Shown: positions 32,724 through 36,995 of the stretch, piece after piece
Position numbering within the stretch: the stretch's first letter is position 1
How the letters are laid out: each line of letters begins with the position of its first letter
Source of the DNA: Pseudomonadota bacterium
GTDB taxonomy: Bacteria; Pseudomonadota; Gammaproteobacteria; Xanthomonadales; SZUA-38
Assembly (NCBI GenBank): GCA_039033415.1
Contig: JBCCCR010000035.1
Location: forward strand, 1 to 64,000
Length of the DNA: 64,000 nt
Direction of reading: 5' to 3'
The notes under the pieces: model-generated
Databases searched by the model: none
Seen by the model: the letters and a program-made list of their open reading frames with translations, nothing else
What the model was told of the DNA's origin: nothing
Made by a program: the position numbers and the translations under genes

Positions 32724-35700
32724 TTATTCGAAGCTGCCGGAGAAAACGAGGTCTTCCGTCGCAATCTTGATCCGCGCCGGCGCTGCACAGTTGTTGTCCA
32801 TGTCCGCTTCACCGCCAACCGGATCGATGCAGGCGATCAGGAATCGAACCGATTCACTCGTCGGCAGCGGAACCACAAACTCCGCTTCCGCTTCGGCAAA
32901 AGAAAACAGGTTATCGACCTGCGCCGCGGCCAGCTCTGGATCAGACCCATCGAACGTCGAGTCCTCAGAGAGGTAAACGCGAATCGTGCTGTCCGCGATC
33001 GTCGCAGGACCCACGTTGGTGGCGCGGATGATTGTCTCAGCTTCGGCGTCTGCCGCGAGCACCGTCGCGGGCACCTCGACATCCTGCACAACCAAATCAA
33101 AACTGGTGTCCGCACAGGGCGTGCTGCGCGTGGCTGACGCACTGCTGGCCTGCGAAGTTTTTCCCTCGTCGTCGGCAGCAAACACCGAGATCTCGTAGCT
33201 CCCGGCGCCGGCGCACAGCCCAACGCTGGCGGCCTGGAAGTCATCGCCGGAGGGCGTCATGGGCTCGAGCACCGCCTGCCCGTCGGGCCGCGTGATCACC
33301 GCAAATACTTCGTCGATGCGGCCGGTTGTGGTCACGCCGCTGGCGGTGATCGGCTCGAAGTCCGCGGTGAGCGCAGAGGCGACCGCAACGCCGCCGATGA
33401 CGGGCTCGTCACCAGCCAACAAAATGCCTCGGCCCAGCGCATAGAACCGGGCGAGTGCCCCGTCGAACAGCTCGTTGCCAGCCGCGTTGCCCTGGTCGTC
33501 CAGCTGCGCGTTTTGCCCCTCGCCAGAGAAACGTACCGCGCTGCGCGCCAGCTGATGCGACCGGCGCACGTTGGCGCCGTTGAGCTGGGAAGTCCAGAAG
33601 AACCGCGAGTAGGCCAGCCTCCCGCGACGCCGGAACACCGCCTCTTCGCCAGCGTCGGTACTGGTGATGACAATCCGGGGATTCGTCGCGTTGCTGGCAA
33701 GCACCGGCAGGAACGCACCGGCGTTGCTACCGTCATACACGACGGTGAGTTGCCCCCCGTTGCTCGCCTCAACCTCATCCAGCCAACCCTCAAGCGTCTG
33801 CGCGCTGAGCGTTTCGGTGTCGTTCAGCACGAACTCACCGTTGTTCTGCGCGCCGACCAGGTAGACGGTGAGATCGGACACCCCGTCGGTGCCCCACGCC
33901 GTGATGGCTTCCTCAACGTTCGCCAGGGTCGACAGCCCATCGGTGCCGAACGACGCAACCGGCGACAGGTAGAAGATGTCATCGCAGTCTGTCGCGCGAC
34001 AGCGACTGCCGTCCGAGCCGTAACCCTGCTGGCGCAGCGCCGCCTGGGCCAGGTTGCCGTTGCGCTCGAAAGGTCGACGCCGGCTGCCGTCGGCCCGGGT
34101 GCCCACAATCAGCACCGCGCGTCGTCGCGAGGGGTCGTCAACGGTGATCGAGGCGAGACGCGGAACCCCGACATTACCCTCCTCGTCCTCGGCATACACC
34201 GCCAGCTCGTAGGTGCCCGGGCTGTTGAACAGCGACGGCGTGGCGCCGTAGGTGCCGTTGCTGTCGGTCGGCACAAACTCGACCAGCGGGAGCTCCGCTA
34301 CGGGGTTGTCCGAAGATCCCGGCTGAAAGCCCGGCGGGCGAACCACCGACCAGACGCGCGCGATCCCGTTGCTGTCGAACACGTTACTCACCGAGATCTC
34401 CGCCGTATTCCCGGAGCTCAGGACAGCCGGAGCGGTCACGGTGCCTAGCACCGGACGGTCCACCGCGTTAGACAACCCGCGCCCAATAATTCGGGTTGTG
34501 GCGATCTGCAGGTCTTCGGGCTCGTTGACGTCACCGTCTCCGTCGCTGTCGATCAGGGCGTTCTGGGTCGGGAATGAGTCGAACGTTGAGTCACGGGCGA
34601 CGGTAAACGCCTCACCGATATCCTCGCCGTTGAAGACCTGGGTCCAGAACTGGTTCGAAAAGGACATCGTGCCGCCCGACACAAAGTAGGCGCTTTCGCC
34701 GGGACTGGCGCTCGTGATCACCAAACGGTTGGTGTCGGCCAGCTCGTCCATAAACGATCCGGATTCACAGGCGTCGTAGATCACCGTCAGCTCCCCATCG
34801 GGATGGGTGGCCTGCCAGGCGCTGAGCCAGCCGTCCAGGGTCGCCGATTGGAGTACCTCCGATCCGCTCATGCGAAACGTGTCGACGCCGCCGTGGTCCA
34901 CCATGTAGATCAGCAGGTTGTCCGCGTCGTCCGCAAAGCTGCCGGTGATCGCTGCCTCGAACGACGCGTTGGTCGCGTCGCTATCGACGTCGTCCGCGAC
35001 GCCGTTCTGATCCAGGTCCAGATCCGTGTCGGCCGACAGATACTGGATGGTGTCCTTCTGAAACCCCTGGCTGACCAGCGTGCGGTAGACAAAGTTGGCG
35101 TTGACCTGGGTGGCATCCCAGAGCGCGTTGCCGGGATAGGGTCCACCGCCGGTGACCACAATCGCTTTGGTGTTGCCCGCAGAAACTCCGGGGCGGAAAC
35201 GCTGCATCCGATTGTTGGAACGCTCAAGCGCATAGACCCGCTGACCGCTGCCGATGGCAAGACCTCGCACGGTGTTGACCTGCCCTGGCAGCACGCCCCC
35301 TTCCGCCATCACGCCGAGCGGCGTGCCGTCCGCCGCCAGCACCTCTACCTGCGTGTCGCCGGCGTAAATCCGCCCGCTGTCGTCGACCGCCAGCGAAAAG
35401 GTCCGCTCCGTCAACGCGTACTCAGCCAGCAGCTGACCTTCCGGCGTAAACCGCTGCAGCTGCCTGAGAAAAGCGGCCAACACGGTACCGTCAGGCGCCA
35501 CCGTGACGGCATCATAAAAGATCGGTGGCTGAGCACTCGACGTGTCGCTGATCGCCCCAACAAAAGTGCCGTCGAGCTCGAAGACCTGGATTGTCGGAAC
35601 CTGCTCGTCACCGACGTAAACCAGATCATCCGGGCCAATGGCGATGGAAACCGCGTTGCCGAAAATCCCGTCGACGCCGGCTTCCGACAGCTCCTGCGTC

Positions 35701-36995
35701 CGCCTGCCCCAGCCGTTCAGGAATCCGCCGTTCGCGCTGAAGCGCCGAATAATCTCGTCCTGATTAAAAGTGACGATTACCACGCTGCCCTCCGACGCGA
35801 TGGCCATGCCGCCCAGAAAGCCCGTCTCGCTCTCCCCCGGCCTCACGGGGGCGAAAGATCGCAGGAAGATTCCGTCGGCATCAAAGACCTGAATCCGCCT
35901 GTTGAATGCGCCCGCGACATAGACATCGCCGCTGCTGCTGATCGCCATGGAGTCCGGGGACGCAAACTTACCCAGCTCCTCGCCGGCGTCGCTCCAGCGC
36001 GAGAGGAACTCGCCGTTGTCCCGGCCCCACCGCGTGATGCCATAGCGATCGACCACGTAAGCCGTTCCGTTGCTGCCGGCAAGCGCCTGGCGAGGACCCG
36101 CGAGTTCCCCGGGTCCGAGGGAGGCATCGTTGTTATCGAAGGTACCAAACTCCAGCAGCTGGTTGCCCGCCGCATCGATACGAACGACACGCGAAGCGGC
36201 GGTGACCAGCAGGTTACCTTCGCCATCCAGCCCAAGCCCTTCCGGCCTGACGATGGTGTTGAGACCGCTGCCCAGACCGTCGATCGCGCGCACGAAGGTG
36301 CCCTCAGTCGAAAAGACGTTGATCAGCTCGGTGTTGAACGACGAAACAAAAATCTCGCCGTTTAGCTGGGCAATTCCAATGGGCCCCAGCTCGGTGAATT
36401 GGCCCGGACCGGTCCCCTCGGCTCCGAAGTTGGCGACAAACTGCAGATCGCTGTTGAACTTCACGACCCGATAGCCTGGCGGGTCCAGCACGTAGTAGTT
36501 GTCGGCGTCATCGACAGCGAGCTGAAACGGACCCTGGAGCCGCGATCCACAGGGGATACAGCGGGGCGTGAACTCCCCGTCGCCGCCGCTCAAGCCCCCG
36601 ACTCGCGCCAGCTGCTCGCCGTCAGGACTGAACTTGATGACGTAGCCAACCGATCGATCGGTCACGATGACGTTGCCCTGGCTGTCGACGGCAACTCCGT
36701 GAGGGCTGAAAAGGTCGGGAGAATCGATATTGCTGACCAGCACGCCGTCACTCGAGTATTTCTGGATCTGGCTGGCGATAGGGTCCGAAACATAGACGAA
36801 CCCCTGATCATCCAGCGCCACCGAGTTTGGCCCCGTCGCAAAGTTGGTCTGAAAAAAGTACGGGCGGGGCTGGCTGGGCCAAAGCAGGTCAAAGGTCGGT
36901 AGCGTCGTGCCGGCCCACAGGGCCGGCGCGATAAGGAGCAACAGGAGTCCTGACCTCATCCCGGTCAAGAGCCTGCAAAATCGATCTAACGTCAT
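32724..36995 (-). CDS. Secreted NHL-repeat protein with C13 (legumain-like) protease and pseudoprotease domains
   Basis: The 1423-residue precursor has a signal peptide (MRSGLLLLLIAPALWA region). Residues about 40-605 form NHL/beta-propeller-like repeats (GVAVDSQGNVIVTD, AVDDADNYYVLD). A caspase-fold domain at about 608-870 has the C13 signature: DHGG with H701, and YDACESGSF with C743. A second copy, about 957-1160, aligns well, but the His position is A1049 (VGAQNN) and the Cys position is S1090 (YDGSNAGAF). A CARDB-like domain (about 1290-1405) and the ending DLVFSGSFE follow. It is probably exported and possibly surface-bound. Function unknown. Confidence 0.8.
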   Translation of the reverse strand: MTLDRFCRLLTGMRSGLLLLLIAPALWAGTTLPTFDLLWPSQPRPYFFQTNFATGPNSVALDDQGFVYVSDPIASQIQKYSSDGVLVSNIDSPDLFSPHGVAVDSQGNVIVTDRSVGYVIKFSPDGEQLARVGGLSGGDGEFTPRCIPCGSRLQGPFQLAVDDADNYYVLDPPGYRVVKFNSDLQFVANFGAEGTGPGQFTELGPIGIAQLNGEIFVSSFNTELINVFSTEGTFVRAIDGLGSGLNTIVRPEGLGLDGEGNLLVTAASRVVRIDAAGNQLLEFGTFDNNDASLGPGELAGPRQALAGSNGTAYVVDRYGITRWGRDNGEFLSRWSDAGEELGKFASPDSMAISSSGDVYVAGAFNRRIQVFDADGIFLRSFAPVRPGESETGFLGGMAIASEGSVVIVTFNQDEIIRRFSANGGFLNGWGRRTQELSEAGVDGIFGNAVSIAIGPDDLVYVGDEQVPTIQVFELDGTFVGAISDTSSAQPPIFYDAVTVAPDGTVLAAFLRQLQRFTPEGQLLAEYALTERTFSLAVDDSGRIYAGDTQVEVLAADGTPLGVMAEGGVLPGQVNTVRGLAIGSGQRVYALERSNNRMQRFRPGVSAGNTKAIVVTGGGPYPGNALWDATQVNANFVYRTLVSQGFQKDTIQYLSADTDLDLDQNGVADDVDSDATNASFEAAITGSFADDADNLLIYMVDHGGVDTFRMSGSEVLQSATLDGWLSAWQATHPDGELTVIYDACESGSFMDELADTNRLVITSASPGESAYFVSGGTMSFSNQFWTQVFNGEDIGEAFTVARDSTFDSFPTQNALIDSDGDGDVNEPEDLQIATTRIIGRGLSNAVDRPVLGTVTAPAVLSSGNTAEISVSNVFDSNGIARVWSVVRPPGFQPGSSDNPVAELPLVEFVPTDSNGTYGATPSLFNSPGTYELAVYAEDEEGNVGVPRLASITVDDPSRRRAVLIVGTRADGSRRRPFERNGNLAQAALRQQGYGSDGSRCRATDCDDIFYLSPVASFGTDGLSTLANVEEAITAWGTDGVSDLTVYLVGAQNNGEFVLNDTETLSAQTLEGWLDEVEASNGGQLTVVYDGSNAGAFLPVLASNATNPRIVITSTDAGEEAVFRRRGRLAYSRFFWTSQLNGANVRRSHQLARSAVRFSGEGQNAQLDDQGNAAGNELFDGALARFYALGRGILLAGDEPVIGGVAVASALTADFEPITASGVTTTGRIDEVFAVITRPDGQAVLEPMTPSGDDFQAASVGLCAGAGSYEISVFAADDEGKTSQASSASATRSTPCADTSFDLVVQDVEVPATVLAADAEAETIIRATNVGPATIADSTIRVYLSEDSTFDGSDPELAAAQVDNLFSFAEAEAEFVVPLPTSESVRFLIACIDPVGGEADMDNNCAAPARIKIATEDLVFSGSFE

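Follow-up and report, generated by a model that had tools for sequence, protein, structure and literature searches.

The window analysed here is a stretch of 64,000 nucleotides from a Pseudomonadota bacterium (GTDB order Xanthomonadales; positions 1 to 64,000 of contig JBCCCR010000035.1, assembly GCA_039033415.1), and this study concerns one of its genes, whose product carries, behind a beta-propeller, two successive domains of the C13 (legumain) type (Table 1). The first of them, copy 1, retains the catalytic His and Cys, and the second, copy 2, has lost both. Homologues of the gene occurred in a genus-mate (G001, 95% over the tandem part) and in a family-mate (G003); the own genome of the window is referred to as G000.

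The two copies aligned in a two-sequence BLASTP with 99/313 identities (32%, E 4e-41). Since the repeat also takes in the Ig-like domain that follows each C13 domain, what was duplicated is C13 together with its Ig-like domain and not C13 alone. In copy 1, the motifs DHGG (from residue 700) and YDACESGSF (from residue 740) contain H701 and C743, and the Pfam Peptidase_C13 profile matched residues 690-771 (E 1.2e-11, 45.1 bits against a curated cut-off of 22.8); in the same scan of the 1423-residue protein, copy 2 gave no match to this profile. No caspase C14 family was found among Pfam matches up to E 1, and the NCBIfam caspase model reached 13.9 bits for a cut-off of 140.

A profile of the tandem part matched legumains and GPI transamidases among solved chains at the sequence level (best E 9e-06); these C13 matches fall inside copy 1, with a few further chains aligning to the Ig parts. 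AlphaFold modelling on the 23 family sequences yielded a pLDDT of 87.4 and a pTM of 0.83 for the tandem, and copy 2 predicted alone reached 88.1 and 0.88, respectively. The model of copy 1 was superimposed on legumain 6azt_A (Z 24.8, rmsd 2.3, 218 aligned residues) and that of copy 2 on legumain chain 5nij_A (Z 22.8, rmsd 2.4, 217 aligned). As both models match legumain, both copies are predicted C13-type folds. The models further displayed beta strands after each C13 domain; the helical C-terminal (LSAM) domain of animal and plant legumains was not encountered in them. An earlier note on this DNA had described two tandem-duplicated C13-like domains, with H701 and C743 in the first replaced by A1049 and S1090 in the second, and had proposed structure prediction as a check; alignment confirmed the duplication, which proved to extend to the Ig-like domain, as well as all four residues, and the predicted folds agree with its reading.

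Table 1. Coordinates of the gene and of its parts within the window.
Feature	Residues	Position	Strand	Basis or remark
Whole gene	1423 in total	32724..36995	minus	open frame from ATG to stop
Signal peptide-like N-terminus (basic, hydrophobic run, ALWA)	1-29	36909..36995	minus	by eye from the translation
NHL beta-propeller repeats	45-600	35196..36863	minus	Pfam NHL E 3.8e-18, SGL E 1.8e-14
Copy 1, C13 (legumain-type) domain with catalytic residues	609-840	34476..35171	minus	Pfam and 6azt_A
Codon of the catalytic His of copy 1	H701	34893..34895	minus	present in 31/31 tandem proteins read
Codon of the catalytic Cys of copy 1	C743	34767..34769	minus	present in 31/31 tandem proteins read
First Ig-like domain	841-953	34137..34475	minus	beta strands in the model; PKD/Big_13 weak, below cut-off
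Copy 2, second C13 domain, catalytic residues lost	957-1190	33426..34127	minus	5nij_A match
Codon at the catalytic-His place of copy 2	A1049	33849..33851	minus	alignment
Codon at the catalytic-Cys place of copy 2	S1090	33726..33728	minus	alignment
Second Ig-like domain	1195-1293	33117..33413	minus	strands in both models; aligns with the first Ig-like domain
CARDB-like domain	1300-1394	32814..33098	minus	Pfam CARDB 20.4 bits, below the cut-off of 22.7
C-terminal tail DLVFSGSFE, variant of the F..GFE tail		32727..32753	minus	tail also on other proteins of the own genome

The loss of the dyad was a constant feature of the second copy in the tandem proteins read. In the family, which counts 23 such proteins, His and Cys were present in copy 1 of 23/23 and both were absent from copy 2 of 23/23, the Cys column of copy 2 being occupied by D (15 proteins), N (3), S (2), E (2) or T (1). 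The same was observed for three tandem proteins of genome G276 (DHG and DACHSG in copy 1, H to N and C to P in copy 2) and, within the order of G091, for the tandem proteins with both copies readable among the matches listed (L157, L158, L159, L160 and L164; dyad in copy 1 only). The pattern thus holds in 31/31 tandem proteins, i.e. those whose loci were read; for the order of G091 these are selected loci among the matches listed (13, then 8 more, together with the G091 and G235 loci). This count leaves aside L161 (first copy cut), L174 and L193 (both cut), L165 and L166 with their three copies, the split pair L055 (see below), L170, L171 and L173 (in which the second copy is broken, cut or devoid of the Cys loop) and, from G091, L100/L101, in which the second copy matches weakly and has no dyad. 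L171 and L173 are relatives of the G276 lineage with a broken second copy. Other relatives are in many cases single-copy and usually intact, L176 once displaying C to S. As for the three-copy proteins, L165 (163-3762) lost C in copy 1 and keeps both residues in copies 2 and 3, and L166 (737-4258) lost H in copy 1 and C in copy 2, both being still present in copy 3. They were placed outside the clade of the window protein, and their mixed losses speak against a strict rule.

Copy 2 is under purifying selection like copy 1. In five G000/G001 ortholog pairs, dN/dS amounted to 0.063, 0.065, 0.024, 0.045 and 0.038 for copy 1 and to 0.078, 0.058, 0.048, 0.026 and 0.023 for copy 2; with values of 0.023-0.078, the dead copy is therefore not decaying. 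Copy 2 is thus a protease fold, according to the models, that lacks catalytic residues and is retained under selection, in other words a predicted pseudoprotease. The earlier note had seen an intact C13 domain beside a conserved pseudoprotease behind an NHL propeller, a layout for which it knew no named family. The folds, the 31/31 dyad loss and the selection on copy 2 bear this picture out, and no model of such a layout turned up in Pfam and NCBIfam scans. The note had named homologues with His/Cys in the second copy as a finding that would refute it; none occurred among the 31 tandem proteins read, but some later copies of L165 and L166, outside the clade of the window protein, keep both residues.

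The loops forming the groove behaved differently in the two copies (entropies were computed on 18 of the 23 rows, five near-identical G001 orthologs being omitted). Between paralogs, the live groove was the most conserved part (0.72 bits in its loops versus about 1.5 elsewhere; coil versus coil, p 0.00046), whereas the dead groove loops were the most variable (2.03 bits versus 1.56-1.66 elsewhere; coil versus coil, p 0.039). Between orthologs, the dead loops displayed 9 non-synonymous and 73 synonymous changes, i.e. a dN/dS of 0.031 versus 0.054 in the rest of the domain. These two values did not differ (Fisher p 0.18), so the dead loops are not relaxed. Variable among paralogs and fixed among orthologs, these loops display the pattern expected of a paralog-specific recognition surface and fit such a surface better than one fixed inhibitor surface; the earlier note had suggested either the presentation of substrates or a partner domain with inhibitory action.

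The own genome contained 12 Peptidase_C13 matches, of which 11 lay in open reading frames of 1267-3586 amino acids with homology across both copies. The remaining one, L020 (569 amino acids), is a different protein; located at L020:6205-7914, it gave the strongest PF01650 match of the own genome (77.1 bits), and its N-terminal repeats resemble MORN by eye. NHL repeats were present in 12/12 family proteins scanned, and some paralogs displayed extra domains, namely FG-GAP repeats in L012, cadherin-like together with Ig domains in L013 and, in L014, an Ig domain at the front and fn3 at the rear. No NHL match was obtained for the two G276 proteins scanned. The window protein, with its signal peptide-like N-terminus, is probably secreted. 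Many members carry behind the signal peptide a segment like FERLWPxLQQPWYF, recognized by eye, a like form of which occurs in L157, L158 and L159 from another order. Likewise, Asp/Asn/Gly-rich loops (like DxDGDG) were noticed by eye at equivalent sites of both copies (residues 814-825 and 1164-1175) and are possibly metal-binding.

At E 1e-8, three of the 61 genomes from the genus, family and order matched: the own genome (11 proteins), G001 (10, i.e. 9 tandem and 1 partial) and G003 (3). At least 5 of 369 genomes matched in the class and at least 8 of 398 in the phylum, the own genome included in both cases; these counts are lower bounds since at most three and two candidates per genome were scored, respectively. 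Tandem members were present in two further orders of the class. Matches were recorded in 2/24 genomes from the order of G276, in at least 28/42 from that of G091 and in 7/48 from that of G545, where the three proteins read (L193, which extends past its contig end, L194 and L195) each displayed one visible C13 domain. A scan of genome contigs with back-translated peptides recovered the genus-mate as sole match, and tblastn gave no match in 72,556 plasmid records. No conserved operon partner was common to more than two loci among the 159 neighbouring open reading frames of the eleven own-genome members (eight pairwise BLASTP lines). A reading as anti-phage defence was rejected, PADLOC matching neither of the two C13-Ig units at E 0.1.

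In a 59-row tree, from which L103 and the split pair were omitted, the first and second copies of the G276 proteins grouped together (100/99.9), apart from both copies of the family, and a single clade of all dead copies was rejected (lnL 90.45 lower, p-AU 9.4e-06). There are two tandem lineages, and the phylogeny suggests that the G276 tandem apparently duplicated and lost its dyad separately from the lineage of the window protein. In an 80-row tree (a quick tree with SH-aLRT supports only), the dead copies of L157, L158, L159, L160, L161 and L164 joined the dead clade of the window protein and their live copies, where the first copy was readable, the live clade. The duplication in the window protein therefore predates its family or moved between orders.

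Dead C13 domains were also met outside tandem proteins. Five of the eight further loci from the order of G091 (L196-L200), six of which had been picked because their match fell in the copy-2 part of the model, code for a single C13 domain without dyad, with C to S in four and C to P in one. The three others comprised L201, which keeps the Cys and has an unclear His column, and two single live copies (L202 and L203). For L196-L200 and L201, the copy-2 profile gave somewhat better scores than that of copy 1. L196-L200 occur in large proteins, and a dead C13 domain can thus be part of a chain that has no live copy. Such occurrences would fit a module with a use of its own, kept as a module, which cuts both ways as regards a partnership with a live copy.

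In G001, the two halves were found as separate products of two adjacent small genes (L055:6887-8403, contig C53). The first gene (237 amino acids) scored 48.8 bits with the copy-2 profile versus 18.6 with that of copy 1 and by eye lacks the dyad; the second (274 amino acids) scored 87.2 bits with the copy-1 profile versus 64.5 with that of copy 2 and displays, by eye, HGG and SC at the catalytic places. The genes overlap stop to start as ATGA, the dead one first, and the pairing is therefore maintained even when split. The branches of this pair are long.

The reading we prefer, to which we give about an even chance, is that of a secreted C13 protease that has retained its dead twin as a partner, the likeliest role of which would be to provide the live copy with a surface for recognition or control. 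Copy 1 would be the enzyme, its secretion and proteolytic activity being presumed. Copy 2 would have kept the fold, lost the dyad and been retained beside copy 1 as a partner without catalysis; the face that once held its active site would have become a surface that differs among paralogs and is fixed within each of them. It could then set the target or the timing of the shared catalytic domain, whether it docks a substrate or ligand or instead touches copy 1 and modulates it; such direct contact of the two copies is presumed here. The propeller, together with the extra domains of some paralogs, would add targeting, and the dead unit might stand in for the helical C-terminal domain of legumain. 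A broader version is put forward more tentatively, as somewhat short of even odds: a secreted family with 11 paralogs in the own genome, each combining in cis a conserved catalytic blade with a dead twin whose former active-site groove would now be a paralog-specific recognition surface, an arrangement which would have arisen at least twice within the class by separate duplication and dyad loss, would persist when split into two coupled genes and would be part of a wider set of dead C13 modules.

Several observations weigh against this preferred reading. Between paralogs, the whole dead domain is less conserved than the live one (1.70 versus 1.33 bits), and the second Ig-like domain stands at 1.79 bits versus 0.9 for one strand pair. 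The signal of the variable groove is modest (p 0.039), for loops that were picked by the author of the analysis via alignment. Gene conversion between the G276 copies could mimic a separate origin. The five stand-alone dead C13 domains are unaccompanied by a live copy, both in cis and elsewhere in the stretch read, so a cis partnership is not the sole use of the dead domain. Many relatives carry a single live C13 copy, so C13 proteins in general can do without the dead one.

The conservation of copy 2 bears on another explanation, which we regard as rather unlikely, namely that the dead copy, its groove being idle, chiefly serves copy 1 as a stabilising scaffold or pseudo-dimer partner, in the way of the legumain C-terminal domain or of cFLIP in relation to caspase-8. 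Several of its core elements are conserved as in the live copy, and the pTM of the tandem model (0.83) points the same way. As far as the available text of a clan CD review goes, caspases work as dimers and legumain is unstable without its C-terminal domain, but monomeric legumain is active (PMC4357240); in the available part of another source, cFLIP figures as a dimerization partner of caspase-8 (PMC6426788). A free groove would, however, be expected to drift between orthologs, and the dN/dS of 0.031 found for the dead loops, as well as the existence of stand-alone dead C13 proteins, argue against it.

That the dead copy is an intramolecular inhibitor, blocking copy 1 until cleaved off, seems improbable to us. 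A table of the same review, in the text available, lists several clan CD families with self-inhibition by a neighbouring region (PMC4357240), yet in the present proteins the dead groove loops vary among paralogs and the groove of copy 1 does not.

Slightly less probable still is that copy 1 acts as a ligase or transamidase, in the manner of GPI8 and plant peptide ligases, e.g. in the processing of F..GFE tails. GPI transamidase and peptide asparaginyl ligases appear among the matches by sequence and by fold, and an exact GFE tail ends 15 of the 22 relatives listed, the others ending in variants. Yet the tail is abundant in members of the order without tandem match (e.g. 66 sites in G017 and 52 in G013), so this enzyme is not needed for it, and a tail-processing transamidase was rejected since the F..GFE tail does not track tandem C13 proteins. 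The tail itself was found before stop codons: out of 50 sites in the own genome, 49 are followed by one, the backwards pattern giving 3 and the permuted pattern 1; in 212 kb read closely, there were 11 occurrences with an open frame behind versus 0 for five permutations. At least one match occurred in 53 of the 61 genomes of the order, with counts from 0 to 66, many low counts being no higher than the control, and the tail was abundant in several other families of the order. It looks like a sorting or anchoring tail, and no paper on the motif was found in a literature search.

Finally, a decaying duplication relic without function, to which the absence of both catalytic residues and the diverged active-site loops might point, is very improbable in view of the dN/dS of copy 2 and of its open frame, which is kept across 31 tandem proteins as well as in the two genes of the split pair.

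The window protein thus offers a live and a dead C13 domain fused in one chain, a long-standing pairing that is subject to selection and seems to have been reached twice. As the 11 paralogs of the own genome share a catalytic groove and differ in their dead one, they constitute a natural series on control or recognition by a dead domain. Bacterial legumain-type enzymes seem little studied. In the open-access literature, no paper was found on bacterial or tandem C13 proteins in this arrangement, with or without NHL repeats, most subscription journals lying outside this search. In the table of the clan CD review, as far as its text goes (tick signs being lost), only viruses are marked as lacking C13 (PMC4357240). 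Thiomargarita has many metacaspases according to the part of a report available (PMC4853749).

Among named models, ScyF (NF035926) shares the NHL propeller with the window protein, which scores 140.5 bits, below the cut-off of 350. It differs in that its matches are confined to the propeller, and the name is uninformative on the protease part. The propeller of one paralog (L019:4333-8172) passes this NCBIfam cut-off (355.7 versus 350), and automatic annotation may therefore give the protease family a wrong name.

The closest known relatives are the legumains (MEROPS C13, PF01650), with which copy 1 shares sequence family, fold and the HG and AC.SG motifs. The window protein differs from them by predicted strands instead of a helical C-terminal domain, by the tandem dead copy and by the propeller, and it is bacterial and probably secreted. 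GPI8/PIGK likewise has a C13 catalytic domain; it works in a membrane complex and is not known to have a dead C13 copy in the same chain. The structure matches of the copies also included chain 3h11_B, listed under caspase-8 : cFLIP-L. The cFLIP-L partner is encoded by a separate gene from caspase-8. This pair resembles the present one in that an active protease of clan CD has an inactive homologue for a partner, as described in the available part of PMC6426788, and differs in belonging to the caspase family. The same source, whose main text does not contain the words tandem, legumain or C13, reports in the part available caspase-type pseudo-orthocaspases in bacteria, 858 of 9,994 orthocaspases carrying substitutions (PMC6426788). 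Like copy 2, these are dead bacterial proteins of caspase fold; unlike it, they are caspase-type. Gingipain R and separase (families C25 and C50) place a catalytic caspase-like domain beside a non-catalytic one, the dead domain coming first.

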